64,000 nt of DNA, taken from Peronospora farinosa (lineage: Eukaryota; Oomycota; Peronosporomycetes; Peronosporales; Peronosporaceae). The stretch covers positions 62,001 through 126,000 of the forward strand of contig CANTFK010000085.1 of NCBI GenBank assembly GCA_947646735.1, in the 5' to 3' direction. The notes beneath the pieces are model-generated. The model was not told the origin of the DNA, searched no databases, and was given only the letters and a program-made list of their open reading frames with translations. Below, piece after piece: positions 1 through 49,818 of the stretch (within the stretch, counting starts at the first letter, position 1; each line of letters starts with the position of its first letter). Made by a program: the position numbers and the translations under genes.

Positions 1-912
1 TCCGCGCCATCATTCAAGGGTCCCAGCAGCGAGGATCCTGCACCCACATCTGAGGGTCCCGGTAGCAAAGGTCCCAGCAGCAAGGATCCTGCACCAACAT
101 CTGAGGGTCCTGCCAGCCAGGGTCCCGCCCGTGATGATCCCCCCGACCGTAACATCCACGGCTCTTCCCTTCCTGGTTATGCGAAACCCAGCACGTTCGC
201 CGCGGAAGACGTTGCCCCCTGGTCGATTTCCCAGGTAGGGACCCTCGTTATCACCCAGCTGACGCCAGAGGATCTTTGGTCCAAGGTATCGCTTCCACTG
301 TCTTGGGTGGGTGCTTCTGAAAACCAGAAGCCCCGAAGTCCCCCAATCTGGAGCGAAGCCCTCATGAAGGACTCTCAACTTCAGCTTTTGATGGACTCAT
401 GTCCTTGGGCCCAGGGGGTCGTGACCGTAACCCCTATTTCTTTTCCAGTGTCCGGCTGGTGCAGTGACCTCGTGAAGCTCCATGATACTTACGTCGACGC
501 GTCACGCCAGAGTCTATGGGAAGACCGACACCGACTTCCTCTTTTTTCCGAACTCCGTACGGAGAGCCAATACGCCTCTCGGCTGTCCAATGCGAGGAAG
601 AAACGGCGGGCCAAGGCTGTGAGGGCTTGGATGGAAGTACTTGAGAAGGTCTTGGAAGGGATGAAGGCCGGTCAATGTGACCTCGACATTCTTCTTGACC
701 CCTACTTCCAGCCCATGATCCCGACCCGTCAGCTGACCGTTTGGTACCCAATCGTCACCACGGAGGATCCTCAGTTGAGTTTGTTGAGGGCTTTGCATAC
801 CGCAGACGACACTGCCCCCTGGCGCGTGTTCTATCGCAAGAACATTCAGGAACACCCCGCCTTCCAGGTCCCTCGTCTCTCTGGCAAATTTCGCCCGACC
901 AACGATGCATAA
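1..912 (+). CDS. Antisense third ORF of Gypsy element RE1, C-terminal 303 residues (open at left edge)
   Basis: The frame is open from base 1 to a TAA at 910-912, so the start lies outside the window. The first part is low-complexity and includes two 17-residue repeats rich in Gly-Pro-Ser-Ser and Pro-Ala-Pro-Thr-Ser-Glu (about residues 7-40). From about residue 140 there is a globular domain with PISFPVSGW, a basic KKRRAK stretch and the motif CDLDILLDPYF followed by VWYP. The same domain ends the antisense protein of RE-B (29,520-32,033), with matching PISFPLTGW and CDLDILLDPYF. It lies tail-to-tail with the RE1 pol relic on the minus strand, the same layout as in RE-B. No known family was recognised and function is unknown. 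The frame is free of stops although the neighbouring pol is badly broken. Confidence 0.7.
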   Translation, partial: SAPSFKGPSSEDPAPTSEGPGSKGPSSKDPAPTSEGPASQGPARDDPPDRNIHGSSLPGYAKPSTFAAEDVAPWSISQVGTLVITQLTPEDLWSKVSLPLSWVGASENQKPRSPPIWSEALMKDSQLQLLMDSCPWAQGVVTVTPISFPVSGWCSDLVKLHDTYVDASRQSLWEDRHRLPLFSELRTESQYASRLSNARKKRRAKAVRAWMEVLEKVLEGMKAGQCDLDILLDPYFQPMIPTRQLTVWYPIVTTEDPQLSLLRALHTADDTAPWRVFYRKNIQEHPAFQVPRLSGKFRPTNDA

Positions 913-1171: not shown

Positions 1172-4100
1172 CTACTCTTCATGACTCTGCATTGCCTCGA
1201 ATCGGTTCCGAGTAGCCTGCCTGCGCTCATAGTCCCTAAGCAATCCCCCGCAGTTGAGGTCCACCTCATCCACCCATGACGGGTCAGGATATTCTTTCCA
1301 TTGTACCAGGTATTCACACTGGATCCGTCCGTACCGAGTTTTCCTTCTCATACGTCTGTCTAGAATTTTCTCCACTTCGTATTCGTCATCTTCCAGTTTC
1401 GCGACCCAACTGTCTTCTGGCAATAGAACTTCTCAAAATCCACCCGGTTCGCTTCGTCTACCACCAACACCGTATCTGGTCTATTCGGGTATTGCCGGAC
1501 CAGCTTCAACTTCGAAATGTGTACCAACGGGTATAAGGTAGTCTGTTCCACTGATGTCGAAACGAACGGCATAGTCACCCACCAGTTCTCTCACTCGGAA
1601 CGGCCCATGCCATAGGTGTGCTAGCTTTCGCGCATAGCCCTCCTTGACCCGGTCCAAGTATAACCAGACTTGGGAATCCACCTCAATATGACCATCAACC
1701 ACCTCCTCATTGTAAGCCTGGGCTCGACTTTCCATCGCCAATCGTAATAATTCGTTGACCTGTTCTCTCACTCGGCGATACTGACGTTGCACGCTATATC
1801 GCCATCGGCGGGGTTCACATGCACGCCTCTTCGTGCTGCCCAACGGTATGGTAGCTTCTAGAGTAATTCGGGCATCCCCGCCATGTACCAAGAAGAATGG
1901 CCATTCCTTTTGGATCAGGTCCTGTGCCGTATTCAACGCTAAGTTGAGCCTTTCTGCATAGGCAATGGTGTGGGAGCGATCTCCAGGCGCGCATCCCAGT
2001 CTTTCTGGTTCAACTCTGACACATACATTTTGATGGAACGTGTAATAGTCTTACCATTCTCTCGGCTGTGCCATTGGCCTGTGGTCGATACGCCATAGTA
2101 GCCCGCTGTTTCTGCCCAATCATGCGGTTGAAGGTACACAAGAAATCTGACATGAAACTAGGTTCCCTGTCGTGACGGAGCGCCTCATTGGCCCCAAACC
2201 GACGGAACACGCACTCTTCGTATCCTTTCGTTACGTTACAGTTAGGGCCTTCCACGACGAGCTAGCCTTGGCAATCACATATCCAGTAAACAGGTCCACC
2301 CAAATCAACAGCTCCGTATTTACCTTTAACGACTTGAGCAACGATAGGATATGGTCCATCGCGATAACTTGGAACGGGTAGGTAGCTTGAATGTTTCCTG
2401 GGGTCCTCCCTCGCAAGTTGGGGCCACCTTTGCCAGTCTCACAGTCCACGCAAGTGCCAACATAGCGCTGAACACTCCGGAATAAGCCTTTCCAATGGAA
2501 ATGTTTCCGGATCCGTTGGTATGTACGGCCAATTCCCTGGTGTCCCCCTTTAGACTCGTATGGTAGTGGTGTAGAAAGACTTGTTGTAGACTTTCAGGTA
2601 TAACTAGCCGAATCAACCCATCACGGTCCGCGTCGATTGTTCCCTGGTAAGGGCATTACAAAAGAATTTCGTCATCATCCAAAGCGTAGCTCATCTCAAT
2701 CTTTCCACACGTAACTGCCACCTCTATCGATCAACTACTCCAATTACCCCGTAGGTATACTTTTAAATCACGTATCCACATCTCTTCATCTTAGGCTGCT
2801 GCAATTCGTTCGATCCTTATCCGTTGCACCACTTCCTCTTGAAAGACTTCCGTCGGTATTCTGGATAAGTCCCGGGATCTCGTAACAGCTGTAACTCGCA
2901 ATGCATGGTTCTAGTCCTTGGGTATAAAAAGCTCAGATAGACGGTTGATTGCTTCGAGGTCCTTGAACTCTTCTTCCGGCACTATATCGACACCCTGTTG
3001 CTGGTGCAAAGCCGCGTTAGCAAGTCGGTCTGAACTTTGGTTCCATTCGCGCTTCATGTGTAGAAACTCGTGAACAGGCCAGGACCTGAGTTTTTCCAGA
3101 GCCTTCGCCCGTCGTACTGTCAGGCCCTGCGCCTTACACTCGATTTCTCCTCGCACTGTCGCACGACCAGATTAGAATCTCCACATACCACCAGACGTCT
3201 ACGCTCCAGGTTCTACAGTAGAAGGAAGCCCAACAATAGGCCTTCATACTCTGCCTCATTTACCGTCGCTTCGGTCAAATATCGGGAAGCAGCGGAGACC
3301 ACCGTCCATTCCGGGAGTTTCCACACAATAGCACTGCAGGCCCCTCCTCTACGCTTAACTCGTGCAGACCCATCAAAACTGACCACATACAGGCTTTCCT
3401 CGGGCTCAACCGTAGGGGGAACCACCGTGATAGTTTGGCGGGGGTGTTTCCTAGGGGTAATTGAAGACAAGATGGAGTCCACGTTTTCGCGAGGAGTTAT
3501 GCTGGCTGCCAATGTCCCCAGTATTTAATCCTCGCCCCGCTTGCACTTAACCACTTCTAACGTCCATTGAGACAGGAGTGCAGCCCAATTTCCAAGGCGG
3601 CCCTGAAGACCTGGTGACCGGACCAACCACGCTAACGTGGAATGTCGATTTAGGACCTTGCTTGGACGGGTAGCCAGCAATTTATAGCAGAGGTCCAATA
3701 TCCGCAATAACGCTAACACTTCCTTGTCACCAAGCCATAATTAATATCATTCGGCTTCAATGTCCGACTTGTGAAAGTCACTGGCATATATACACCCTCA
3801 TACTTCTGTACAAGGGACACCGAGATGGCCCATTCGCTAGCATAGAGGCTCCCGGTCTGGATCGAAGTGGCGGAGGATTGGAGCAGTGGCGATCTTATTC
3901 TTTAACATAGCAAATGCTACCTGCACCCGGGCCCATCGGTCCTCCTCCTGGTCATCTCCCCGTATTTCCCCAGTCCTGCTTATCCGGTTTCGTAATACGT
4001 GATAATCTACTCCCCTTAGTTCGTACAGGATGGACGCATAAATGGCGTAGTCTTCCAGGAACCGACTGTAATAGTTGAGACTCCCGAGAAAAGACTGCAT

Positions 4101-5191
4101 AGCTTTCAGGGTAGTGGGTAACGGTAATTCCACCAAGGACTGAAGGTCTTTAAGGTGGGCCTCCAACCCTTTCGCCGATACTTGGTGGGAAAGGTAATCT
4201 ACCTTTTGACAGCCCCATGAGCTCTTGACCGCGCTGATTGATAAGTTCCACTTGTCACACACCTCCAAAAGTCGTTCTAATTTCACGCATAAGTCATCCC
4301 ATGACTCCGAGGTCACCAAAATGTCGTCGGTATAGGACCTACGTCCTAATATAGACTTCTTGAGGTCCACCTCGGAATGGCCTATTTTGAACAGGTCAAC
4401 CTCTTTCTCAGCGTTGAGCTTCGAGGAAATCGTTAGAAATCCATATAAAGCATTATCTAACAGCCGCTGATAGATCTGCGGCGCATTCTTTAGTCCAAAC
4501 GACATTCTTCTCCACTCGAACAACCCAAACGGAGTCACAAATGCCGAAATCAAACGATCCCTCTCAGTCATACTAACTACCCAAAAACACTGGCCATGTC
4601 AAGCGAGAAATACCATATCTTTGTCCAAATCTTTTAACAATTCGTTAACGAGAGGCATAGGGTACACCATGAGGCGTGTCAGCTCGTTCAACATACGGCA
4701 ATCGATACACAGCCTTATATCCACTCCATTCTTCTTGACGATGATCACAACCGGGCTGGCCCATGGGGAGGTAGAATTCTGGATGATCTTAGACGAAAGC
4801 AGGCCCTTGATTAGGTCCGACAGCTTCTTCCTAAACTATGGGGCCACTTTCCGTACACGTTTGGCGATAGGCCGTGCATTTCCAACATCGATGTCGCACA
4901 CCGCTCCTCGGGCTGCCGGGGGTAACGCGTTGCTTTTTCCCATCAACAGATGTCGTTTCTGCCAAATAATATGGCGGAGACGGTCCACTTCCTTTAAAGT
5001 TTCACCAGGGTCTGGCATCTGGAAATCTTTCAACGTGGCTTCGTCTGTAGAAGGGGCGACCCCAAGGATAATCGACCAGTTTTTGTCAATATCATCTGCG
5101 CATAGATTTCCACTATCGTGGACACAGACCTGGTCATCGGATATATTTTCCCGGCTTCATTGTCTTGTTGGCCCCTCCGTGATTGGACCTT
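1172..5191 (-). pseudogene. RE1 pol relic (Ty3/Gypsy chromovirus-like): RT, RNase H, integrase, chromodomain
   Basis: Read on the minus strand, conserved blocks occur in order. The pre-RT linker with RGAVCDIDVGNA is near 4,890-5,030. RT (3,840-4,870) has LDM-type motifs and YTDD where the family has YIDD. The degenerate RNase H tether is at 3,525-3,860 and the second RNase H (VVSFDGSAR, NEAEY) at 2,911-3,510. Integrase (1,940-2,640) has HYH and CxxC zinc ligands and the RHDREP/ERM core, and the chromodomain at 1,172-1,480 has WVDEVDLNCGG. Many stops and frameshifts break it, for example a TAA at about 3,525-3,527 and a frameshift near 3,156. The right end is cut at 5,191 by the LTR of RE-D, so gag and protease are not in the window. 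It is a dead copy. From about 2,240 to 3,720 it is nearly identical, inverted, to RE-D. Confidence 0.9.
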
Positions 5192-20077: not shown

Positions 20078-20193
20078 CTAGTTTTCATGGCTTTGCATTA
20101 CTTCGAAGCGGTTATGGCTTGTCTTCTTGCGCTCGAAGTCCCGGAGAAAAGCTCCGCAATTCAGATCCACTTCGTCCACCCACGAGGGGTCAG
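20078..20193 (-). pseudogene. 3' end of RE-C pol (end of chromodomain), cut off by RE-B
   Basis: The minus strand encodes PSWVDEVDLNCGAFLRDFER and then NRFEVMQSHEN before the stop, the end of the chromodomain. It continues the frame left at 33,371 after WKGHPD once RE-B (20,194-33,370) is removed. The shared tcag at 20,190-20,193 and 33,371-33,374 is the RE-B target duplication. Confidence 0.9.
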
Positions 20194-21447
20194 TGTGGCG
20201 AAGTGAAAGAGTGAATTTCGCCAAGTGTGATCGCATATTTTCGGTTAAGTCCGAAATGGCCAATATTAATGAGTCGCGATCTCGTGGCCAATATTGATGA
20301 GTCGCGATCTCGCAGAAAGGTTTCAAGACGATGTCAAATAGGATGGAAAACAGTGAATGGAGTAGTTTGCACTTCTATGTGGGGTCAAATATGGCCTAGA
20401 AACTACGCTATTGCGATCTCCAGTATTTCCGATGGCGATCCGCGTGAACGCGGTCGCTAAGGAGGAAGATGGGTACATCCAAGCATGTGGAGGACGGTCT
20501 GGTGTGGATCACGTCGCTATGGAGGACTGGAATGGTGGATATGAAATGTCACATTGATGAACTATCTCACATGACCTGAGAAACGGTGAAGAAGACAAGT
20601 CGGGATCCGGCGGATCGCGATCCGATATTAATTATTTAGTACCGCGATCTGGTATTAATTATTTAGTACCGCGATCTGGTACTAATTATTTAGTACCGCG
20701 ATCTGGTACTAATTATTTAGTACCGCGATCTGGTACTAAAATGGTATTATATCCGAGTGAGGTAGCGATCCAGATCGCGGCTATATTGGAGTGGACCACA
20801 TTCCGAGATCTGATTTTTTCCGAAAGGGCGATACGTGGCAACAGATCCTGAGCTACAGATAGTCAAGATCATAGGTTTTGGTATTTGATTGGTTAACATT
20901 AACAGAGTTCAATTTGCTTCTAAGTACACGTGTCGACTTCTCTTCCGGGCTGGATTCTTTGGCCTCCCGACGTCTCAAGGAAGTCTACCTACTACGCAAG
21001 TCATATCCCTGGATTGTTTGGCCAGGGATTGCAAGAATTCTCAACAAAACAAATCAAGCTGCGATTGGACGCAGAGGACTAAGAAGTCCAGATACAAGAT
21101 CGCGAGACGGCTCAAGTGGTCAGAAGGCAAGCGGATCAAGTATCTACATTTTTGGACAAGGCGATCTCAAGGGAGATCAGGGCGACTCAAACAGAGCACC
21201 CCAAGAACAACTGCGATCGTGTGAGGAATTCCACGCGATCGCCCCCCCCCCACCTATCCCTAACACAATCAAGTTCAACATCGACTCAAGTCTACCGAGA
21301 AGAGAGCAACCCGCCCTACCGACGGGTACACAAGGTGAGGAAGGCTATACACACGGAATCGGGGTACCCCCTCCGTTAGTCGGTCGTCCGGGCGCCAGTG
21401 GAGAGTTGGGATCGCATCAGCAATTTTGCGAATCCCACTCCACCACA
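20194..21447 (+). repeat. RE-B 5' LTR (1,254 bp)
   Basis: It starts TGTGGCGAAGTG and ends CCACCACA. Four 27-bp units (taattatttagtaccgcgat plus ctggtac, 20,629-20,736) lie in the first half. The U5 end holds ACAAGGTGAG (GT at 21,335-21,336) and the hairpin-borne palindrome GGGGTACCCC at 21,361-21,370. A long open frame crosses from about 20,878 into gag, but the element's ATG is at 21,448. Confidence 0.95.
20629..20736. repeat. Four 27-bp tandem units in RE-B LTR
   Basis: Units start at 20,629, 20,656, 20,683 and 20,710. Each joins an AT-rich half (taattatttag) to a half with CGCGATC. The copy in the 3' LTR is at 32,554-32,661. It is a plausible enhancer-like array in U3, which is inference from position. 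Confidence 0.85.
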
Positions 21448-23739
21448 ATGGTGCGCGTGCCCGGATCTTCTGGTGACTCGGGATTTCACCGTGAGTCCCT
21501 GAGAGAAGATGTCAAGATCAAGACTGAACCTGGGATTGAAGCGTCAGCGGCAAAGGGATCACCGCAGACGTGTGAAGAAAAAAGATCCCCGGATCATCAG
21601 CGTTTTGGGAGGGGCGCAGATGAAAAGAAAACCAAGGAGGAAGATCAAGAGATTGATCTGGAAGAAAAACCTCTACCCCCTCCCCAGGTCCTTTCGAGGA
21701 CCCCTGCGGATCGCGTTGCAAAACGCGATCCGCTGGATAAAAATCCTACGGTTAAAACCGAAGGAAATTTATCCAAAACCACTCCGAATTCGAAGAAGAA
21801 GAAGAATTCGAAGCCATCTCGAGTGAAGATGAAGGCGCCTGAGTCGGATCATGATGATATCGACGTGAAGCCAGCGCATGAGGAAGACAAGGCGAAAGGA
21901 TGGCAACTGGATCAGCTGGAATGGTGTTTTCATTGGAAGGCGCTTAAAGATCTGTTGTCAAGCGATCCCGTTCTAAAGATTTTGAAACCGAAGTTGATTG
22001 GATCGCTACGAGGACCAATTTCAGCTCCCATTCCGACACCGAACCAGTTGGAAGCGATCCGTCGGCTTATGGAGTTGCTCCAGAACGCTGGATTCACCGC
22101 TGGAGCTTTTGACGCGCAGGTGCTGTTGGAATGCGATCATGATCGGGTGATCCAAGCAGGGCGATCTCTGTTTTCGAAGCTAGTTCCTCTAATTGGAGAG
22201 CGCGATCCGGTGGATCAGACGATCCAGCCGATTGCAGATATACCAAAAGGATATCATACGGGATCTTCGCAATATATGTCAGCGGAATCCGAAGGGGAGT
22301 CGGACGACTCGATTAATATGCAGCGAATGTCACTTGGACCGGCTGGTGCAGCGCATATTCGCGAGCGACTGGCACCGATTAAGGCCAGAGAACAATCGAC
22401 GACGGCACTCACAGCTGAAGACATGAACGTGAATGGATCAGGTCAATTGCAATCTTATTTTGAAGCTGCCATGAGAAAGTACGAGCAGGATCAAGCTCGC
22501 ATGATCGCCAGTCGATCCGCGATCCCTACAAACACCCCAAAAGTTTGCATTTCGGATGTGGATATGGAATCGGCCGGATCGCGTCAATCGCGATCCAATA
22601 ATTACGATCCAGACGATTTGGGTCTGGAGGATCTAAGACGGCCACAAGTCGCAAGTGCAGGCGCTGTACCTAATGGTGGACTTGTCACGCAGCGGATTCG
22701 AATGTCTGCGATCGCAGATCTGAAAGAATTTACAGGACGGGACAAGGATGAAGATCGAGCGAGAAGTTGGGTCAACAAGGCCAAGTCGGCGTTCTTACGC
22801 GACCAAGCCCCGGATGATGAAAAATGTCTAGTATTTGGTGATTTACTTACGGGGCCGGCACGAAATTGGTATAGCCAGTTAAGTCGATCCACCCGGAATT
22901 CATGGAAGTCGTTGCTGGAAACCTTCATGATCCAGTATTGTGGATATGGTATGTCGGTCGGGAGACAATACTACCATGCGAAGAAGCGATCTGATGAAAC
23001 TCCATTGGAATATTTGTATCGACTGAATGTGGCCGCGATCCGAGCAAAAATCCCCATTCGGGAAGGATCGCCCTCAATTCGCCGAGAACATGTGGAACAT
23101 TTCATTGGTACACTTGATGATCGCGATCTGGCTAAGCAGTTGACGTTGTTACGCCTTGGAGACGCCGATGATATGGAAGAAACTCTGCGAACATATCAAC
23201 GCATGGAGGGAAGACAGTATCCGAGTGCAATGGGATCGAGCAAATTTCGTCAGCGATCTGCGTCGGCATCCACTCCGGCACCCTCGAAACCAACTCGTGC
23301 TGTGAGAGCGATTCGTCTGGAAGGCAGTAGCAGTGAGTCAGACTCGGATATTAGTGGATCAGACGCCGAAATAGATCGACGCAACTTATGTGTGGCCACA
23401 GTACCAGATCGCGTGAAGAAATATAGTGATCAACGCGCGGGATCAGACTATTTGGATCAAGATCGCGGTCCAGATCGCGTGGTGAATCAGAAGGCTTGTA
23501 CCCATTGTGGGTCGAAGAAACACGATGATCGTGGATGCTGGAAGAGACTAACGTGTCAGAAGTGTGGTCGTAAGGGACATCCGTCGGACAAGTGTTTTTA
23601 CACCTGTGCTGCCTGCGGAGATATCCATGAGCATGGAAAATGTCGAATGGAAGAATTCTACAACATGATACGCAAGTGGTATGTCCCAACCAAGCATGCT
23701 GGAATGCTTCCGCCGAAGGCTGAAGAAATGTTAAACTAG
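21448..23739 (+). CDS. gag: RE-B gag polyprotein (763 aa)
   Basis: The ATG at 21,448 is immediately after the LTR and overlaps the primer-binding site. The context ccacaATGG is favourable. The N-terminal 300 residues are charged and low-complexity. A capsid-like domain (about residues 415-590) has KEFTGRDKDEDRARSW, LLTGPARNWY and PLEYLYRLN. The C-terminus has two canonical CCHC knuckles (CTHCGSKKHDDRGC and CQKCGRKGHPSDKC) and a third irregular one (CAACGDIHEHGKC), about residues 684-731. It ends EEMLN then TAG. It would form the particle and package RNA. It is intact, unlike the RE-C and RE-D homologues, which share the same start and end. Confidence 0.93.
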   Translation: MVRVPGSSGDSGFHRESLREDVKIKTEPGIEASAAKGSPQTCEEKRSPDHQRFGRGADEKKTKEEDQEIDLEEKPLPPPQVLSRTPADRVAKRDPLDKNPTVKTEGNLSKTTPNSKKKKNSKPSRVKMKAPESDHDDIDVKPAHEEDKAKGWQLDQLEWCFHWKALKDLLSSDPVLKILKPKLIGSLRGPISAPIPTPNQLEAIRRLMELLQNAGFTAGAFDAQVLLECDHDRVIQAGRSLFSKLVPLIGERDPVDQTIQPIADIPKGYHTGSSQYMSAESEGESDDSINMQRMSLGPAGAAHIRERLAPIKAREQSTTALTAEDMNVNGSGQLQSYFEAAMRKYEQDQARMIASRSAIPTNTPKVCISDVDMESAGSRQSRSNNYDPDDLGLEDLRRPQVASAGAVPNGGLVTQRIRMSAIADLKEFTGRDKDEDRARSWVNKAKSAFLRDQAPDDEKCLVFGDLLTGPARNWYSQLSRSTRNSWKSLLETFMIQYCGYGMSVGRQYYHAKKRSDETPLEYLYRLNVAAIRAKIPIREGSPSIRREHVEHFIGTLDDRDLAKQLTLLRLGDADDMEETLRTYQRMEGRQYPSAMGSSKFRQRSASASTPAPSKPTRAVRAIRLEGSSSESDSDISGSDAEIDRRNLCVATVPDRVKKYSDQRAGSDYLDQDRGPDRVVNQKACTHCGSKKHDDRGCWKRLTCQKCGRKGHPSDKCFYTCAACGDIHEHGKCRMEEFYNMIRKWYVPTKHAGMLPPKAEEMLN

Positions 23740-23781: not shown

Positions 23782-26700
23782 GGCTCTGCATTTATGCATT
23801 TGTGGAAAGAAGATCGACAGATCAGGGCGTTAACACTCAGATCGACCCGAATAATACATGTGAAGATTCAAAATTTCTGCGTTCAATATCAAGCGTCGTA
23901 AGAGTTGATGAATATGCCCGATCGCCTGCGAAAATGGAGCTCGACTTAGCACCAGGTGAATCACGGGGATATTGGAAATATCATACCCCAGGAAAATGGT
24001 TCAAGCAAGCCAAGGCAACGGGCAAGATCAACAATGAAAAGGCGATTATGTTGTTTGATTCTGGAGCCGAAGTCTCAATCGTCGACACCACCTTTGCTCG
24101 TAAGGTAGGATGTGTCATTGACGAGAGTCAGAGGCAAGAATGTGTTGGGATTGGTGAGAACATATACATGACGGACGGTCGTACAAGAATCAAGATCACG
24201 CTGAATGGATCGCTAGTCTATTATTTTGATGCTTGGGTAGGAGATCAAGTAGGTCAAGACGCGATCCTAGGAATGGATTTTATGGTCCCAGCTGGAATAC
24301 GCCTGGATTTAGCAGATGGAACACTTTGTTTGCCTGATGAGGTCAGGATACTTCTGAATGGACGAAGACCCCCTTACCGGGCGACCATACAAGCGATCAC
24401 AATTCCAGATCAATATGTGGTGATTCCCGTGGGCAAATCGACCGAAGTGAAGATCGGAGTTAGTCCTCCTAAAGCCAAGATCTGGGTGAGGCGCGATCCG
24501 AAGTGGGTACCTACAGTAACTACGGGACCAGGTCAGATCAAGTATCTACAGCTGACTAATATCGGCGATCAAGAAGTGACTTTAAGTCATGGATCGCCAT
24601 TAGGTTGGTGGATGGTTGCTGATATGATACCTCGGTCCCCAGGATATGTCTCGGTGGGATCGCGTCGGTATAACGAATGGCAGACATTAGCGTTCGAAGC
24701 GACAACGGATCGAGAAGAAGAACTACTGGAGGAATATACCGGACCGCTAGTGGACCATCCTTCGTACCCTACGCCGAAGAGGATCTTAACACGCTCAAAA
24801 AAGGAAGCAGAAGAAAGGACTACGGAAACAGTGAAACCCACGACACGATCCAATGATGAATGCGATGCGATAAGAGGAATCGGTGGCAACAATGTAGAAG
24901 ATCGGGTGATCGAAGATGAAAGCGAGCAAGTAGCGCAATCTCCATGGGTAATCAATGCGATCAGAGGGATGTCAAATGTCGATCACGTGAAAGGGCCGTG
25001 GGGTGAAGATAATTACACTCACAATAACTATACACCGAAATGTATGGAGCGCGATCCGACAATTGAGGACTGCGATCTGGCTGATCTGGCAATCAATGAC
25101 CGCGATCTGGCCGATCTGGTAATCAATGACCGCGATCTGGCCGATCTGGTAATTAATAACCGCGATCTGGCCGATCTGGATCGCGATCTGCGAGAACAAG
25201 AGCAAGCTAGTGATACGACGATTATCAACGACGAATTTATTCTAGCCGGAGGAAGTGTAAAGATGAAGCCTGAAGACTCGATGTATTGTCATGAGAGTGG
25301 TGAATTGTATGCCGAAGATGTGGATCAGCATATGGCTGTCTTGCCTGAGATTGTGTCATCCACCGAAGAAGTTACGATTGATGATATCCAAGTGGGCGAT
25401 CCGGGAGTTCCTTTAACCAAGGACCAAGAAAGTCTACGGCAATTAATTTGGGCGAACCGACACTTACTCATTGGCAAAGGAAACGCGCTTCCTCCTGCAG
25501 CTCGAGGAGCAGTATGTGATATCGATGTTGGTGGAGCACACCCGATCGCACAACGAGTACGACCGGTCGCTCCCAAATTTCGCGAGAAGTTAGCTGACCT
25601 AATCAAAGGATTACTATCAGCCAGGATTATCCAGCCGTCGACATCACCATGGGCTTCGCCGATTGTGGTAATCATAAAAAAGAATGGTGTCGACATCCGG
25701 TTATGTATTGACTATCGGCGGGTGAATCAACTCACGAGATTGATGGTGTATCCTATGCCTCTGATTAGCGAATTATTGCAAGATATGGATAAAGCTATGT
25801 GGTATTGTTCGTTGGATATGGCCAGTGGATTTTGGGTCGTGGAAATGACCGAGCGAGCAAGGATGATTTCTGCTTTTATCACGCCGTCAGGCCTGTTCGA
25901 GTGGTTACGAATGCCGTTTGGGCTAAAAAACGCTCCGCAGATTTACCAACGTCTAATTGATAATGCACTGTATGGATACCTCAAGATCGGTACGGATCCA
26001 AACGCAATTGCCACAGGATCACTCGACTCCGCTGATACGGTAACGGGATCGCCAAAGCTGGTTGATGTATTCACAGAAGGCGAACCGGATACTAGCCAGA
26101 AGCCATCTGTGCTTGGCCGAAGGTCATATATTGATGACATACTAATTCCAGCAACATCGTGGGCCTCCTTATATGATAAGGTAAAGCGATTGTTAGAAGT
26201 ATGCAACGAATGGAATTTGTCGATCAGTCTCGCTAAAAGTTTTTGGGGACGACGTAAGGTGGACTACCTGGGTCATCAAGTCTCACTGGCAGGAATCGAA
26301 GCTAATCCAAAGGATTTGGGATCGCTGGTGAATATTCCGTTCCCAAAAACGTTGCGATCGATGCAATCGTTTCTGGGAAGCTTGAATTACTATAGTCGAT
26401 TTGTCGAAGACTTTGCGATTTATGCGTCAGTGCTATATGAATTAAGGGAAGCAGATTTCCATGAAATCCGCTGTTCTGACAAGATGAATGCATTGGATTC
26501 GACTGTCGCAACCAGGAATGATTCAGATCAAAAGTTCGATATTGGGGACGATCCAGATCCAGAAGGACGGACTCGATGGGAAAAAGCGATGATCGCATTT
26601 ACCATGTTGAAAGCCAAGATCGCTAATACCCCGATCCTCAGACACTTCGATCCAGATCGGCCTCCGGTAATTGTCGTATATGCGAGTAAATGGGCCGTTT

Positions 26701-29336
26701 CAGCAGCTTTATTGCAGGAGTATGATGGTATATATTGGCCAGTTACTTTTACAAGCCGAACGCTGAAGCCTAATGAAATCAATTACGGAATGGTCGAGAA
26801 GGAGATACTAGCATTACTTCGGATTTTGGATATATGTTATTGCATGCTAGTCTCGCGAGAGATTAAAGTTCTTACGCGTTTCTCGACGATGGCCTGGTTG
26901 GTGCAATCCTTCGGTCTCAATGGCAGGCTAGGTAGGTGGGCCGCATTATTATCGACTTGGACTTTGGAGATCAAGAAATGTGAAAAGGGCGAAGATGAAA
27001 TGCTTGGTGCCCTGGCTGCAAGTGTGACTCCCCGTGAAGAAGTCGACGAAGTGTTGATTGCGATCGCTCCCCGGAAACAGCCAAGGCAAACTCTAAGTAT
27101 GCCACCGCCTACGGTGGAAGAAGATGAAAGTCTCTTGGTCGTCAGTTTCGATGGATCGGCACGAACCAAGCGAAAGGGTGGATCATACAGTGCGATAATA
27201 TGGAAACTTCCTGAGTGGACTATTGTGGCTGCTGCATCGGAATATGCAACGGACTTAACAGTGAACGAAGCCGAATATCGGGGTTTACTATTAGGCTTTG
27301 ATCTGTTGGAGAATCAAACTAGGGGACGCGTTATTATTTGTGGCGACTCCAACCTAGTGATTCGACAGATGCGGGGTGAAATCGATTGCAAGGCTCCTGG
27401 ACTGCAGTTGTTGCGACAGAAAGCAATGGAGAAGCTTCGATCATGGCCGATCCATGAGTTCTTACACATGAAACGCGACTGGAACCAAAGTGCAGATCGA
27501 CTGGCGAGTACTGCTTTACAGAAGGAACAAGGTGTGGTCATCACTTCGGAAGGAGATCGCCAAGATCTCATTACTCTTAATAGACTGGATGAGTTGTTGA
27601 AGTCGAAGCAGACCGAATCGGTGGTTAAAGTGGCTGCGATTACCAGAGCAACCCGGAGAAGACGTCAACCACCCGAGATCTTGCAAGAAGAATTTGTGCA
27701 GCAAATGCGAAGTGAACGTATACGACAAGCTCAAGATGAGGAATGTTGGATCGCTAACCTAAAGATTTTTCTGATTGGTGATATAACGAATCTCAGTATG
27801 GAAGAAGCGAAGTCATGCGCCAAGATTGCAAGTGATTATGAGGTGGATGAAAGCGATATTCTATATTTTTGCCCGGGAGCTGTGAAAAATTCGGACGATC
27901 TCGATGGAATTGCTCGTTTGGTGGTGCCAGAAACTCTTCAGCAAGATTTTCTACACCACTACCATGCCAGTTTGGAAGGAGGGCACCAGGGAATCGGTAG
28001 GACGTATCAACGGATCCGATCTCGTTTTCATTGGAGAGGCCTGTATCGCAGTGTACAACGATATGTGAGCGAATGCACTGACTGCGAGACTGGAAAAGGA
28101 CGTCCGGTTATTAATGGAGAGTCTCCGGGAAATTTACAAGCTACTTATCCGTTCCAGATTATTGCCATGGATCATATTCCGTCGCTGCCTAGATCTTTCA
28201 AAGGCAACACTGAATTATTGATCTGGGTCGATCTCTTTTCGGGCTATGTGGTTGCCAAGGCGAGCAAATCTAGAACAGCTCAGACGATCGCCGAGAATTA
28301 CGAGGAGTGTATCTTTCGACGATTCGGTGCGAGTGAAGCGATACGGCACGATCGAGAGCCCGGGTTTATGTCGGATTTTTTTCGTGCGTTCAATCGACTT
28401 ATTGGGCAAAAGCAAAGGGCAACGATGGCATATCGCCCTCAAGCGAATGGAACTGCGGAACGTATGGTGCAAACTCTGACTCGTGCATTAAAGATGTATG
28501 TCTCTGACGTTAATCAACAAGACTGGGATGAGTATGCCGAACGTCTAACTTTCGCAATCAATACCGCTCAAGATCGGGTGCGCGGCGAAACGCCATTTTT
28601 CTTGATTCATGGTTGGGACCCGAGATCTACGTTGGAAGCTACGTTACCATTAGGAAGTACTAGGCGTCGAGATCGCGATCCACGTAGGTGGCGATATCAT
28701 ATGCAGCGGCATTATCAGCGGGCGAGAGAAGCAGTAAATGAGAGACTCAGGACTGCGATCCAAACACGTGCTGATCGCCACAATGAAGATCTCAAGCCTC
28801 ACGAAATTGAGCCGGGGGCGCAAGTCTGGTTATATTTGGATCGTGTGAAAGAAGGGTACGCTCGAAAGCTAGCACATATGTGGCATGGACCTTTTCGAGT
28901 AAAAGAAATGTGTGGAGATCACGCTGTCCGACTGGAGATTGCTGGTACGCCATATCGATTATTTCCCGTCGTACATATATCCAAGTTGAAGAAAGTGAAG
29001 ACGTTCCCTGATCGTCCAAAAAATTTGCTGACGATCGAAGAAGAATATCGATTCGATTTTGATGAAGCGCTTTTGCCAGAAGACAGTTTTGAAGGTAATC
29101 TGGGAGACGATGAATTCGAAGTGGAAAAGATTGTGGATGTACGATCTGATAGAAAGACACGTTTTGGACGAGTACATAGACAGTTTAAAGTCTACTGGAA
29201 AGGTCATGCTAAACCATCCTGGGTGGATGAAGCCGACTTAAATTGTGGTGCCTTATTGCGAGATTTTGAACGTGGCAAGATTAGCCGGAATCGTTTTGAA
29301 GTGATGCAATCACATGAAGAGGGATCTGGTGGCTAA
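23736..29336 (+). CDS. pol: RE-B pol polyprotein: protease, RT, two RNase H domains, integrase, chromodomain
   Basis: The frame starts by -1 shift at 23,736; a GTG at 23,802 is only an internal codon. Residue positions below count from 23,802. Protease LFDSGAE is near 84. The linker holds four 30-bp repeats (25,071-25,190, RDLADLVIND units). RT (about 560-900) has CSLDMASGFW and catalytic YIDD near 775. The first RNase H/tether (about 955-1,080) lacks the usual Asp of DAS (VYAS) and of TDH. The second RNase H (about 1,110-1,230) keeps FDGSA, NEAEY, GDSN and SADR. Integrase has HYH/HQ and CxxC ligands (from about 1,383), then AMDH and RHDREP to ERM. The chromodomain is about 1,770-1,830. About 1,866 residues, no stops, presumed active. 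Confidence 0.93.
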   Translation, partial: LGRSPGWNLVRAERSRLCIYAFVERRSTDQGVNTQIDPNNTCEDSKFLRSISSVVRVDEYARSPAKMELDLAPGESRGYWKYHTPGKWFKQAKATGKINNEKAIMLFDSGAEVSIVDTTFARKVGCVIDESQRQECVGIGENIYMTDGRTRIKITLNGSLVYYFDAWVGDQVGQDAILGMDFMVPAGIRLDLADGTLCLPDEVRILLNGRRPPYRATIQAITIPDQYVVIPVGKSTEVKIGVSPPKAKIWVRRDPKWVPTVTTGPGQIKYLQLTNIGDQEVTLSHGSPLGWWMVADMIPRSPGYVSVGSRRYNEWQTLAFEATTDREEELLEEYTGPLVDHPSYPTPKRILTRSKKEAEERTTETVKPTTRSNDECDAIRGIGGNNVEDRVIEDESEQVAQSPWVINAIRGMSNVDHVKGPWGEDNYTHNNYTPKCMERDPTIEDCDLADLAINDRDLADLVINDRDLADLVINNRDLADLDRDLREQEQASDTTIINDEFILAGGSVKMKPEDSMYCHESGELYAEDVDQHMAVLPEIVSSTEEVTIDDIQVGDPGVPLTKDQESLRQLIWANRHLLIGKGNALPPAARGAVCDIDVGGAHPIAQRVRPVAPKFREKLADLIKGLLSARIIQPSTSPWASPIVVIIKKNGVDIRLCIDYRRVNQLTRLMVYPMPLISELLQDMDKAMWYCSLDMASGFWVVEMTERARMISAFITPSGLFEWLRMPFGLKNAPQIYQRLIDNALYGYLKIGTDPNAIATGSLDSADTVTGSPKLVDVFTEGEPDTSQKPSVLGRRSYIDDILIPATSWASLYDKVKRLLEVCNEWNLSISLAKSFWGRRKVDYLGHQVSLAGIEANPKDLGSLVNIPFPKTLRSMQSFLGSLNYYSRFVEDFAIYASVLYELREADFHEIRCSDKMNALDSTVATRNDSDQKFDIGDDPDPEGRTRWEKAMIAFTMLKAKIANTPILRHFDPDRPPVIVVYASKWAVSAALLQEYDGIYWPVTFTSRTLKPNEINYGMVEKEILALLRILDICYCMLVSREIKVLTRFSTMAWLVQSFGLNGRLGRWAALLSTWTLEIKKCEKGEDEMLGALAASVTPREEVDEVLIAIAPRKQPRQTLSMPPPTVEEDESLLVVSFDGSARTKRKGGSYSAIIWKLPEWTIVAAASEYATDLTVNEAEYRGLLLGFDLLENQTRGRVIICGDSNLVIRQMRGEIDCKAPGLQLLRQKAMEKLRSWPIHEFLHMKRDWNQSADRLASTALQKEQGVVITSEGDRQDLITLNRLDELLKSKQTESVVKVAAITRATRRRRQPPEILQEEFVQQMRSERIRQAQDEECWIANLKIFLIGDITNLSMEEAKSCAKIASDYEVDESDILYFCPGAVKNSDDLDGIARLVVPETLQQDFLHHYHASLEGGHQGIGRTYQRIRSRFHWRGLYRSVQRYVSECTDCETGKGRPVINGESPGNLQATYPFQIIAMDHIPSLPRSFKGNTELLIWVDLFSGYVVAKASKSRTAQTIAENYEECIFRRFGASEAIRHDREPGFMSDFFRAFNRLIGQKQRATMAYRPQANGTAERMVQTLTRALKMYVSDVNQQDWDEYAERLTFAINTAQDRVRGETPFFLIHGWDPRSTLEATLPLGSTRRRDRDPRRWRYHMQRHYQRAREAVNERLRTAIQTRADRHNEDLKPHEIEPGAQVWLYLDRVKEGYARKLAHMWHGPFRVKEMCGDHAVRLEIAGTPYRLFPVVHISKLKKVKTFPDRPKNLLTIEEEYRFDFDEALLPEDSFEGNLGDDEFEVEKIVDVRSDRKTRFGRVHRQFKVYWKGHAKPSWVDEADLNCGALLRDFERGKISRNRFEVMQSHEEGSGG

Positions 29337-29519: not shown

Positions 29520-32033
29520 TCAAGAAGTGTTATCAGATCCCGACTGCTGTTTGGGAAAGAATTTACTGGATAAACGGGCGAGGGATGAACCGGGGTGATC
29601 CGCGATTGAGGACCGATATTGGTTCCGCCAAGGCTCCGCAGAATCCAATAACGACAGTGCAGTAATCAGGTTGGGAATGTTTTTCTGCTTGCAATCCAAA
29701 CCAGGATACCATGGTCGCACTTCTGCGTACACTGGAAAGTGGAGGAAGTATGGATCTAACAAAATATCCAGATCACAGTGTCCTTCGATCATCCCTTGGA
29801 GAATAACGCGAAGAATAGTCTTCCAGCGGGGTCCAGATCTCGACCGACGCTGCTTGCGTTGCTGACAAAATTGCGCCAGCTCTGGATACTCCTTCCGAAG
29901 TTCGCGGGAGATATACAGGAAGTGGGTTGCCTCCCACAAGGCTTGCCTATGGCGATCTTCATATTCCAGGTAAATGTCCGCCAGATCTTTGAACCAACCG
30001 GTCAGCGGGAAAGAGATGGGAGCAATCGGCCGACGAGTGACGTTCCACGGTTTCTGATCGTAAAGCGCAGTAACTTGTGCCGGGGTGATCAGTCGGGGAA
30101 TCCACTCAGAATCAAGAAGAGATTTGGGATTGGCTTGAGGGGTGAAGATATACCCTCTCGGTCGGGACAAGTGTCGATAGAAGAACTCCACTCCCAATTC
30201 GGCAACACTGGTCAGACTGACCCGTCGGGCGGACCATGGAGCGACCTGAGTTGACGATCGGGGCTTTCGCTCACGATATCCTGGGATCCACACATCACGT
30301 GATTTTTGGAGATCAGGCAGGTCGGCGTATTGAGCGGGAGTGAGCAACTGGTTTATATCTTCACGGATGTCACTGGAAACGCTAATCTTCCCGTCCGAGT
30401 CGCTAGAAGGTTCGCCAAAAAGGTCGACCTTAGAAATCTTGGTCGTAAGGCTAGGGGGCGTAGCAGGACTCGAGACTGGTGATTTTTTGGAGGGTGGGCT
30501 ACCATTGTGAATTATGATAGGGGACTGAGACGATCCGGTGTTGCCAGAGAGTTTCGTCGTGGTGTTGCGACGCCTCGTGGTGGAACGCGATCCGGATAGA
30601 GCAGCAAGTGTAGCGTCCTCGGGATCGGAAGACCAGCCGTCATACTCAGAGTCAGGCGAAGGCGAGGGACACGTTTTGCGTTTCTTTTTAGCTTTCGACG
30701 AAACATTGGGTCGCGTTGTAATAACGGATCGCACCGACTTGGCAGACCGTTCTGAGTTACCAGATCGCGTTAAATTACCAGATCGCGGCGGAGTACCAGA
30801 TCGCGGGGAAATACTAGATCGCGCTGAAGTGCCAGATCGCGCTGAAGTACCAGATCGCGCCGGAGTGCCAGATCGCGTTAAGTTACCAGATCGCGGTGGA
30901 GTACCAGATCGCGCCGAAGTACCAGATCGCGCCAAAGTATTAGACTGTGCCGAAGTACCGGATTGCGCCGGAATTTCAGATCGCGTCGAAGTCCCAGATC
31001 GCGCTGGAATGCCAGATCCCTCCGAGGTCGCAGATTGAGCAGAAGTACCGAAAGCGCTGCGGGGACGTTTACAGGGGACGTCCAGAGTCGGTGAAGATGA
31101 CGCACGTTTGCGATTGGGTGACGAGGGATTGGAAAGCGCGAGAAGGCTAGTCGGAGAAGGAAGTAAGCCCGTAGCCAATTCTGCCAGATGCGAACGAAGT
31201 AAATCTCGATCCTGGATGGCCAGATCGCGCTCTGCCTCTCGATCTGCAACTTCGGTACGAAGTCGATCCAAAGCTGCGTCGTTCCGAATACTCGTACTCA
31301 GGAGGCGATCATGATCAAGCTCGAGCGCGCTCAGTGTCTCTTGCAGTTGTTTCGCGGCTTGCTGGGCCTGAGAACGAGCTTTCTTGTACTTGGATGCCTT
31401 GCTTTTCATGCGTCGAAAGTCAGCGGCCAAAGCACTGTCTGCTGTATTACGCTGTGCGAGGATGGAGTCCAGTTGCTGTTGGAGGGACGCGATCTGCTGC
31501 CGGAATTTTCCTTCCAGAGTTCGCTGAAGATTGGCCGCCTCACGGCGGAATTTATCCTGCAGGCGATGTTTCTCTGCATTGGCTCGAAACAAGGCATTCT
31601 TCAGATCGGCGATCTCCTGAGACTGATCCGTTAGCTGGTTCAGTTCTTCGTCGAGACCTTCGGCCATGTGGAGAGCGGCATCAAGTTGTTGACGCAACTC
31701 TTCATCTCGACGCAAGACGAATGTGCACAGTCGAGGCACCAACTCGTGATACGAGTTGAGTTCCGTCTCCAGCTGATTTCCACGAAATTCCTGCTCCTGC
31801 AAGGCATTTTCCATGGAGTGATAGCTTTCCACGATGGTATCCTGGGCTTCCAGGCGGTCATACAATGAAGAAACCAACGAGATCGCGTTCTGACGATCTG
31901 CAACGGGAGGAAGGATTATCCGGGTAGACGGGAGCAAGATACGCGATCCGGTAGAGGAACCCATCGTTGGATCGCGCGTAACGAGCACACCAGTTTGGGG
32001 GTGGCGATCGTTTTCGGGTGTAGATCTGGCCAT
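29520..32033 (-). CDS. RE-B antisense third ORF (837 aa), coiled coil plus conserved C-terminal domain
   Basis: The ATG at 32,031-32,033 (MARSTPEND) was chosen because it is the first ATG inside the internal region. The frame stays open upstream into the LTR with non-ATG codons. Order: Ser/Thr-rich start; a long coiled coil (about residues 90-300) with heptad-like Leu, Arg and Glu; repeated ARSGT/PRSGN units (about 340-440, from CCAGATCGCG DNA repeats); a KAKKKRK basic cluster resembling a nuclear localisation signal; an acidic, Ser-rich part; and a C-terminal globular domain (about 610-830) with PISFPLTGW, GHCDLDILLDPYF and RPWYPGL. The last domain matches the RE1 antisense ORF at 1-912. No family recognised. 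It may bind nucleic acid or regulate the element, which is speculation. Confidence 0.8.
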   Translation of the reverse strand: MARSTPENDRHPQTGVLVTRDPTMGSSTGSRILLPSTRIILPPVADRQNAISLVSSLYDRLEAQDTIVESYHSMENALQEQEFRGNQLETELNSYHELVPRLCTFVLRRDEELRQQLDAALHMAEGLDEELNQLTDQSQEIADLKNALFRANAEKHRLQDKFRREAANLQRTLEGKFRQQIASLQQQLDSILAQRNTADSALAADFRRMKSKASKYKKARSQAQQAAKQLQETLSALELDHDRLLSTSIRNDAALDRLRTEVADREAERDLAIQDRDLLRSHLAELATGLLPSPTSLLALSNPSSPNRKRASSSPTLDVPCKRPRSAFGTSAQSATSEGSGIPARSGTSTRSEIPAQSGTSAQSNTLARSGTSARSGTPPRSGNLTRSGTPARSGTSARSGTSARSSISPRSGTPPRSGNLTRSGNSERSAKSVRSVITTRPNVSSKAKKKRKTCPSPSPDSEYDGWSSDPEDATLAALSGSRSTTRRRNTTTKLSGNTGSSQSPIIIHNGSPPSKKSPVSSPATPPSLTTKISKVDLFGEPSSDSDGKISVSSDIREDINQLLTPAQYADLPDLQKSRDVWIPGYRERKPRSSTQVAPWSARRVSLTSVAELGVEFFYRHLSRPRGYIFTPQANPKSLLDSEWIPRLITPAQVTALYDQKPWNVTRRPIAPISFPLTGWFKDLADIYLEYEDRHRQALWEATHFLYISRELRKEYPELAQFCQQRKQRRSRSGPRWKTILRVILQGMIEGHCDLDILLDPYFLHFPVYAEVRPWYPGLDCKQKNIPNLITALSLLDSAEPWRNQYRSSIADHPGSSLARLSSKFFPKQQSGSDNTS

Positions 32034-32118
32034 AAGGGACGAAGTGACGAGAAGAGTGAAGCGAGACAGTGCACAGTTAGGCCAACACTGTATGTGGGCT
32101 ATCGGTGCAGGGGACGAT

Positions 32119-33370
32119 TGTGGCGAAGTGAAAGAGTGAATTTCGCCAAGTGTGATCGCATATTTTCGGTTAAGTCCGAAATGGCCAATATTAATGAGTC
32201 GCGATCTCGTGGCCAATATTGATGAGTCGCGATCTCGCAGAAAGGTTTCAAGACGATGTCAAATAGGATGGAAAACAGTGAATGGAGTAGTTTGCACTTC
32301 TATGTGGGGTCAAATATGGCCTAGAAACTACGCTATTGCGATCTCCAGTATTTCCGATGGCGATCCGCGTGAACGCGGTCGCTAAGGAGGAAGATGGGTA
32401 CATCCAAGCATGTGGAGGACGGTCTGGTGTGGATCACGTCGCTATGGAGGACTGGAATGGTGGATATGAAATGTCACATTGATGAACTATCTCACATGAC
32501 CTGAGAAACGGTGAAGAAGACAAGTCGGGATCCGGCGGATCGCGATCCGATATTAATTATTTAGTACCGCGATCTGGTATTAATTATTTAGTACCGCGAT
32601 CTGGTACTAATTATTTAGTACCGCGATCTGGTACTAATTATTTAGTACCGCGATCTGGTACTAAAATGGTATTATATCCGAGTGAGGTAGCGATCCAGAT
32701 CGCGGCTATATTGGAGTGGACCACATTCCGAGATCTGATTTTTTCCGAAAGGGCGATACGTGGCAACAGATCCTGAGCTACAGATAGTCAAGATCATAGG
32801 TTTTGGTATTTGATTGGTTAACATTAACAGAGTTCAATTTGCTTCTAAGTACACGTGTCGACTTCTCTTCCGGGCTGGATTCTTTGGCCTCCCGACGTCT
32901 CAAGGAAGTCTACCTACTACGCAAGTCATATCCCTGGATTGTTTGGCCAGGGATTGCAAGAATTCTCAACAAAACAAATCAAGCTGCGATTGGACGCAGA
33001 GGACTAAGAAGTCCAGATACAAGATCGCGAGACGGCTCAAGTGGTCAGAAGGCAAGCGGATCAAGTATCTACATTTTTGGACAAGGCGATCTCAAGGGAG
33101 ATCAGGGCGACTCAAACAGAGCACCCCAAGAACAACTGCGATCGTGTGAGGAATTCCACGCGATCGCCCCCCCCACCTATCCCTAACACAATCAAGTTCA
33201 ACATCGACTCAAGTCTACCGAGAAGAGAGCAACCCGCCCTACCGACGGGTACACAAGGTGAGGAAGGCTATACACACGGAATCGGGGTACCCCCTCCGTT
33301 AGTCGGTCGTCCGGGCGCCAGTGGAGAGTTGGGATCGCATCAGCAATTTTGCGAATCCCACTCCACCACA
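32119..33370 (+). repeat. RE-B 3' LTR (1,252 bp)
   Basis: Matches the 5' LTR at a constant offset of 11,925 up to the C-run, which is two bases shorter here. A purine-rich GCAGGGGACGA tract just upstream may act as polypurine tract. The tcag at 33,371-33,374 duplicates the target. The antisense ORF start lies 86 bp outside its left edge. Confidence 0.95.
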
Positions 33371-49800: not shown

Positions 49801-49818
49801 ATACCACCGACGCAGTAA
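43846..49818 (+). CDS. TPR: Nucleoprotein TPR/Mlp-like coiled-coil protein, 5' end broken by two in-frame stops
   Basis: Exon 1 (ATG 43,846 to 43,897, MATGSDTAALAASSINQ), a GT-AG intron (43,898-44,053) and exon 2 from 44,054 keep one frame. In that frame TAG (44,167-44,169) and TAA (44,188-44,190) interrupt residues before a clean frame of about 1,870 codons. The protein is almost wholly coiled coil to about residue 1,490 of the long frame. It contains QRDMYRVLLAQ, very like vertebrate TPR, and has a Ser/Thr/Pro-rich tail with RRSQRLARF and KRPL basic clusters. TPR proteins form the nuclear basket of the pore and act in mRNA export and checkpoint control. The stops may be real decay or base errors; the next in-frame ATG is near 44,447. 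Confidence 0.75.

Follow-up and report, generated by a model that had tools for sequence, protein, structure and literature searches.

A conserved antisense gene between pol and the 3' LTR of Chronos-like Ty3/Gypsy retrotransposons in the oomycete Peronospora farinosa

The Ty3/Gypsy element RE-B of Peronospora farinosa carries a third protein-coding gene on the strand opposite to gag-pol. This antisense ORF (aORF) is conserved among related elements of the same genome, keeps its antisense place beside pol and, in two families, is accompanied by conserved intron signals. With a probability of roughly 60%, we read it as an accessory gene that is expressed from its own antisense transcript and encodes a coiled-coil nuclear protein, which would influence, in trans, how the element is transcribed or integrated. 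RE-B lies in a window of 64,000 nt, the whole stretch of DNA analysed here.

The complete RE-B element measures 13.2 kb, with LTR ends TG..CA and the TSD TCAG. It is recent, since 2 mismatches and 2 gap columns separate its two LTRs. Its parts are as follows.

20194..21447, plus strand: 5' LTR of RE-B (TG..CA), with the TSD TCAG directly before it at 20190-20193
21448..23739, plus strand: gag region of RE-B, in an open frame (20878-23739) that starts inside the 5' LTR
23802..29336, plus strand: pol ORF of RE-B, 1844 codons, with its stop at 29336
29520..32033, minus strand: aORF of RE-B, a frame of 837 codons with ATG and stop, in the gap from the pol stop (29336) to the 3' LTR (32119)
32119..33370, plus strand: 3' LTR of RE-B, followed by the TSD TCAG; presumed source of an antisense transcript

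A Pfam scan of RE-B pol found an aspartic protease, RT, RNase H, a second RNase H, integrase and a chromodomain. Both RNase H domains score above cutoff (RT_RNaseH at residues 950-1051 and RVT_3 at 1116-1237); of the integrase, H2C2 lies above the Pfam cutoff and rve below it. The chromodomain (Chromo PF00385, residues 1772-1823, E 3.2e-4) reaches 21.0 bits against a curated cutoff of 25.1, at the location expected after the integrase. Pfam gave no match in the gag region; CCHC-like knuckles were read by eye close to the end of the gag frame. Each RE-B LTR also contains four repeats with 27-bp spacing (20636-20735 and 32561-32660), each near-palindromic (TTAGTACC..GGTACTAA) and a candidate binding site. 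Inspection of the LTR by eye for oomycete initiator sequences supports no claim. RE-B is flanked by an older related element on the minus strand, matched at 20084-20197 and 33343-38249, whose pol, judged by these matches, seems to have been interrupted by RE-B at the end of its chromodomain. Host genes recognized by Pfam elsewhere in the window encode a TPR/MLP-like nucleoporin (44203-49818, plus strand) and an ankyrin-FYVE protein (56768-58957, minus strand).

The initial annotation had described the 837-codon ORF between pol and the 3' LTR, a homologue in the same place and orientation in a second element, RE1, and two motifs common to both proteins, and each of these claims was borne out. 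The RE-B frame reads from ATG to stop, the RE1 ORF beside the tail of RE1 pol matches it with 35% identity over 245 aa (E 1.4e-39), and both PISFP(L/V)(T/S)GW and CDLDILLDPYF are found in the two proteins.

1..912, plus strand: C-terminal part of the RE1 aORF, homologous to that of RE-B, by sequence match
1175..5138, minus strand: RE1 pol, in pieces and convergent with the RE1 aORF, by sequence match

The RE1 protein extends to the left beyond the window, where the match (C20:60798-62903) contains one TAG and one TAA; only the C-terminal part of the RE1 aORF is intact in the window because this copy is broken upstream. The intron and the further families described below are located outside the window.

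The genome searched comprises 46.85 Mb in 274 contigs. Within it the RE-B protein matches 91 stretches, and its full residues 1-837 are matched in one stop-free frame at 15 places, RE-B included. A search with the RE1 protein returned its own family at about 70-93% identity, F54 at about 54% and F35 at about 35%. The genome thus holds at least five divergent aORF families: RE-B, RE1, F54, F35 and one at C259 (locus L063). Among 62 aORF loci examined, which are best matches and not a random sample, a convergent pol tail lies downstream of the aORF in 58 and a pol tail on the same strand in none. The four uncounted loci are L006 (rearranged), L026 (two aORF pieces, with a pol tail match listed), L029 (at a contig end) and L035 (without a pol match). 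Three places are duplicated (L037/L043, L038/L054 and L049/L052), giving 55 of 59 distinct places in which homologues sit antisense and 3' of Gypsy pol, an arrangement that the initial annotation had set in advance as a test of its claim. The spacing between the pol and aORF matches is about 190-370 nt, with L027 (1) as the exception.

The reverse count started from pol tails, 117 of which were scored out of 2138 candidates. An antisense aORF match, partial ones included, is listed within 1.5 kb of 82 of the 117 (68 matched first, and 14 more once the fifth family was searched), leaving 35 without one. Four of the 49 initially unmatched tails were read: L063 revealed the fifth family, L065 and L066 have only the N-terminal part of the RE-B aORF, and L064 has a Chronos-like pol followed by repeats, with no aORF in about 3.2 kb. 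The pol tails adjoining the aORF pieces of L065 and L066 are 100% and 98% identical to that of RE-B, and the aORF C-terminal domain is therefore missing from some recent copies. Pieces of LTR at these two loci are 93-99% identical to the RE-B LTRs.

Homologues were also expected in other oomycetes, and they are found in both Peronospora and Phytophthora. A search with the C-terminal domain returned 16 distinct database proteins, in records without genomic context. Ten carry species names (Peronospora effusa, P. matthiolae, Phytophthora palmivora, P. fragariaefolia, P. capsici, P. rubi and P. megakarya) and are all annotated as hypothetical, unnamed or uncharacterized; no function is given for any of the 16. 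In an F35 copy this domain shares 99% identity with a protein from Peronospora effusa, which suggests a host at or close to that species. The full-length alignment A1, used as a protein-search query, returned nothing among 8000 scored candidates, probably because the search words come from its first 500 residues, which are repetitive. Phage sequences gave no match, and of 18 pattern matches in viral contigs none was confirmed. Two of the database proteins have unusual layouts. P0010 (586 aa) continues from an RT and RNase H frame into the aORF C-terminal domain without a change of sense, as in a rearranged or chimeric element, and P0016, from Phytophthora fragariaefolia, joins this domain to zf-GRF (PF06839), either by gene fusion or as an annotation artefact.

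The aORF frame is under purifying selection. Over the whole aORF, dN/dS between F35 copies is 0.32 (CI 0.25-0.42) and 0.34 (0.26-0.46), and between RE1 and F54 it is 0.27 (0.21-0.35) at a dS of about 1.6, with 0 stops in either family comparison. The C-terminal domain gives 0.17 (L039 vs L041) and about 0.22 (RE1 vs F54); one very close RE1 pair gives 0.59 in this domain. RE-B compared with F35 gives 0.28 and 0.37 at a dS of 1.8-2.4, which is near saturation. The value for F54 vs F35 is 0.21 at a dS of 3.6, and the remaining family pairs are saturated. On this second test set by the initial annotation, dN/dS is not neutral in the F35 and RE1/F54 families, with the RE-B pairs near saturation. 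Corresponding values for the pol tail are 0.15, 0.15 and 0.03, a stronger constraint than on the aORF. Given that dN/dS is purifying but weaker than in the pol tail, the aORF is a selected protein, and a faster-evolving one.

These comparisons also bear on whether the aORF is a chance shadow of another coding strand, as long overlapping frames on the opposite strand (397 codons at L039) might suggest in places. In the compared stretches, each of the other five frames is interrupted by 7-28 stops, and those of the opposite strand contain 7-21 in the compared copies, so that only the aORF frame is open. It also has the lowest dN/dS: the other frames give 0.95-1.83, except the -1 frame at 0.40-0.44, an expected and usual echo of third positions. 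Together with the conserved domain, these data agree with the initial annotation that this is not a shadow frame, an explanation that we regard as practically out of the question. That the aORF is a captured host gene, carried as cargo with no role for the element, would fit its antisense orientation and the fact that no relative among other known transposon proteins was found. This reading is very improbable, given the homologues beside Chronos-type pol in 55 of the 59 distinct places read, which are best-scoring matches, and the several divergent families that keep the gene under selection. A third alternative is that the antisense RNA itself regulates, by base-pairing to the 3' region of the genomic RNA, which would feed silencing or dampen translation, with the protein secondary. 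The convergence of the two genes at such short spacing is consistent with this idea, which has been raised for antisense additional ORFs in the available part of a review of plant elements (PMC7264820). An RNA-only role predicts neither codon selection in one frame nor a domain recognizable from Peronospora to Phytophthora, and we consider this third alternative unlikely.

The protein consists of a low-complexity N-terminus, a coiled coil, a basic serine-rich linker and a C-terminal domain of about 270 residues, located in RE-B as follows.

31164..31736, minus strand: coiled-coil region, about residues 100-290; the A1 profile matches coiled-coil chains in PDB, and Pfam coiled-coil families match weakly
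30393..30689, minus strand: low-complexity linker, with KKKRK at 30675-30689, ATLAALSGSRSTTRR at 30570-30614, SPIIIHN at 30504-30524 and VDLFGEPSSDSD at 30393-30428
29538..30356, minus strand: conserved C-terminal domain, about residues 560-832, with CDLDILLDPYF at 29745-29777 and the basic RKQRRSRSGPRW at 29823-29858

At E up to 5, Pfam returned mostly weak matches of coiled-coil type. The C-terminal domain has no credible Pfam or PDB match (the best PDB profile match is AP-2 sigma, E 0.58). Among 18 aligned sequences it has 12 invariant columns, including His704, Cys753, Asp754, Asp756 and Asp760 in RE-B numbering, which is the alignment number shifted by 555. The product is net basic (117 K+R vs 91 D+E) and contains the NLS-like basic clusters KKKRK and KRPR. 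No membrane segment was found, the highest 19-residue hydropathy being 1.08-1.43 in seven proteins.

Two motifs recur in the linker. A SUMO-interacting-type motif, which we regard as a lead from sequence, was sought in 17 proteins, of which four come from this genome and 13 are among the 16 homologues, and occurs in 13 of these 17, compared with 5.25 expected from shuffles; the pattern is absent from the RE-B protein, and P0021 matches it off the likely site. The pattern used is that of ELM. A pattern of the type AALxxSRSxxRR was also found in 13 of 17 proteins; a UIM-like reading of it was rejected by eye, with basic residues standing where acidic ones are expected.

From the coiled coil, a basic NLS-like cluster and the conserved C-terminal domain, the initial annotation had suggested a nucleic-acid-linked or regulatory role, which remains an inference. 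The coiled coil, net basic charge and NLS-like clusters would also suit a structural or nucleoprotein component that helps particles to assemble, acts as a chaperone or brings the pre-integration complex into the nucleus, and is not a transcription regulator. The available part of the plant review suggests that such products act as accessory proteins do in retroviruses, and also mentions entry into the nucleus (PMC7264820). Against this, no known capsid or nucleocapsid domain was found in the Pfam scans, and a product expressed separately, in antisense, would not be coupled to gag-pol RNA, an arrangement that would suit a regulator better. We view a structural role as possible, if improbable, and a regulator remains the preferred reading.

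Signs of an antisense transcript come from the region just inside the LTR. RE1 and F54 both contain a 63-nt GT-AG stretch there on the antisense strand. Between L013 (RE1) and L037 (F54), exon 1, which extends from the LTR as far as the donor, is identical in 63 of 75 columns (84%) and the intron in 33 of 63 (52%); despite this low identity, the donor, a branch-like TTCACCAACTCAC and the acceptor are kept. Exon 1 ends in A and exon 2 opens in frame with TG, and splicing would therefore create the start codon (A|TG). In an unspliced transcript the first ATG in frame would be codon 62 in RE1 or codon 57 in F54, and the codons before it are under weak constraint (pN/pS 0.64, CI 0.41-0.93, 61 codons). 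Of 28 RE1 and 19 F54 loci tried, those readable at the sites carry the GT donor, AG acceptor and A|TG together in 21 of 24 and 17 of 18 cases, respectively, or 38 of 42 overall; these are not independent events, since copies within one family share descent. L010, L015, L032 and L045 lack the full set. F35 has a candidate 57-nt intron immediately before an ATG, a weaker case because the frame stays open through it. Inspection by eye found no clear intron in RE-B or the C259 family; the RE-B frame is open upstream of its ATG, which is only 85 nt from the LTR, and into the LTR to at least 32216. The conserved signals in two families point to an antisense transcript, and a putative antisense-strand intron of 63 nt whose removal would make the start codon is new here.

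A hairpin lies directly beside the polypurine tract.

32070..32115, no strand assigned: hairpin (32070-32109) that passes into the polypurine tract GCAGGGGAC (32107-32115), its position conserved across five aORF families

On the antisense strand, the segment from CCCCTGC to GTGCA forms a predicted hairpin in all five aORF families, with differing stem sequences. The z scores of the five families are -3.3, -3.4, -3.0, -1.6 (RE-B, the weakest) and -3.9; besides RE-B, the hairpin was seen at L013, L037, L039 and L063. Across six RE1, F54 and F35 sequences, pairing covers 94.4% of cells, and none of 500 shuffles reaches the covariation score. Three pairs are changed on both sides, a number equalled or exceeded in 191 of 500 shuffles, and the pair changes represent one contrast, F35 against the rest. 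Because the sense strand folds with a weaker z in all five families (close in F35, at -2.7), the folding favours a hairpin that belongs to an antisense leader.

The aORF is convergent with pol and unreadable from gag-pol RNA, and thus requires an antisense RNA of its own. This RNA would presumably start from or near the 3' LTR and, in RE1 and F54, would lose the 63-nt intron to form the AUG. The N-terminal coiled coil would probably form oligomers, and the KKKRK and KRPR clusters may direct the product into the nucleus. There it could regulate element transcription or integration in trans, by analogy with HBZ and Grande GENE23. The C-terminal domain can apparently be supplied in trans or is dispensable, as the copies without it at L065 and L066 adjoin pol tails 98-100% identical to that of RE-B.

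RE-B most closely resembles Chronos, a group defined by a dual RNase H (native plus archaeal-like) and a chromodomain (Ustyantsev et al. 2017, PMC5348765), with Peronosporales or Pythiales as hosts. Both share an oomycete host group and a dual RNase H, and RE-B has a candidate, sub-cutoff chromodomain in the corresponding place after the integrase; the likeness is one of domain architecture. The Chronos description speaks of ORF1 and ORF2, and its main text contains "antisense", "third ORF", "additional ORF" and "accessory" 0 times (PMC5348765). Some plant-pathogenic oomycetes contain such retrotransposons in very large numbers, with 1555 Chronos RNase H domains counted for P. infestans in a table of the same paper, and the aORF gives this group a third gene. 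The Peronospora effusa genome papers mention LTR elements and, in their available text, do not describe the gene (PMC6264045, PMC7217449). "Antisense" occurs 0 times in the main texts of these two papers and of PMC10508981, and listings of open-access PMC literature, with the starts of abstracts, contain no description of it.

Env-like third ORFs are in sense orientation and transmembrane, whereas the RE-B ORF is antisense and without a membrane segment, and it is thus not of that kind. The closer parallel is with the aORF-3R of plant Retand, Grande, RIRE2 and PvRetro13 and fungal Boty, which, in the parts of the sources available, are antisense, lie between pol and the 3' LTR and occur in most copies (PMC7264820, PMC11963269). 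The ORF of the RE-B group has this place and orientation and is present in most copies (82 of the 117 scored). In contrast to the plant and fungal aORF-3R, the oomycete product shows no match to the Transposase_28/TRP28 of Retand and places the coiled coil first and the conserved domain last. Transposase_28 (PF04195) had no match in this genome at E up to 10 and was not among the matches listed for eight proteins at E up to 5 (for P0011, the best 25 of 41). A start codon made by intron removal, as predicted in RE1 and F54, is not mentioned for plant or fungal aORF-3R in the available text, and "intron" occurs 0 times in that of PMC11963269. The antisense product of Grande is nuclear, according to the same partial sources (PMC7264820, PMC11963269).

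There are further parallels with HTLV-1 HBZ and HTLV-2 APH-2, antisense genes whose transcript arises from the 3' LTR and is spliced and whose product is nuclear, as given in the available part of PMC10186651; for the oomycete aORF, transcript and nuclear product are predictions from sequence. Spliced antisense transcripts are thus found in HTLV (PMC10186651) and predicted in Chronos-type RE1 and F54. Host and element are unrelated, and, in contrast to HBZ, no bZIP scored above cutoff in the scanned proteins; one sub-cutoff match is among those listed (P0007, E 0.097, 13.2 bits vs 27.6).

Retand and Grande are taken here to belong to the Tat clade, given that Tat4-1 and Grande1-4 served as Retand queries (PMC11963269, available part). 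A dual RNase H is described as having arisen independently in Tat, Chronos and Archon, as in retroviruses (PMC10508981, available part). Because retroviruses, Tat and Chronos gained the second RNase H independently and each has members with an antisense gene near the 3' LTR (HTLV, Retand/Grande and Chronos), such a regulatory gene may have evolved repeatedly as a package together with the dual RNase H. The antisense ORFs of Boty and PvRetro13 may count against this idea, which we regard as a doubtful suggestion drawn from retroviruses, Tat and Chronos. If it is true, retrovirus-like regulation arose at least three times.

Antisense accessory genes have so far been discussed mainly for plants and a single fungal element, and these data add oomycetes and a new protein family. 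Because the start codon is predicted to arise by splicing, antisense expression can be tested directly through spliced antisense reads at the junction given above. The best reading, by analogy, is that the aORF works like the antisense ORFs of plant Retand and Grande elements or HTLV HBZ, being, as far as tested, homologous to neither, and it would offer an independent lineage in which to ask why LTR elements evolve antisense regulators.
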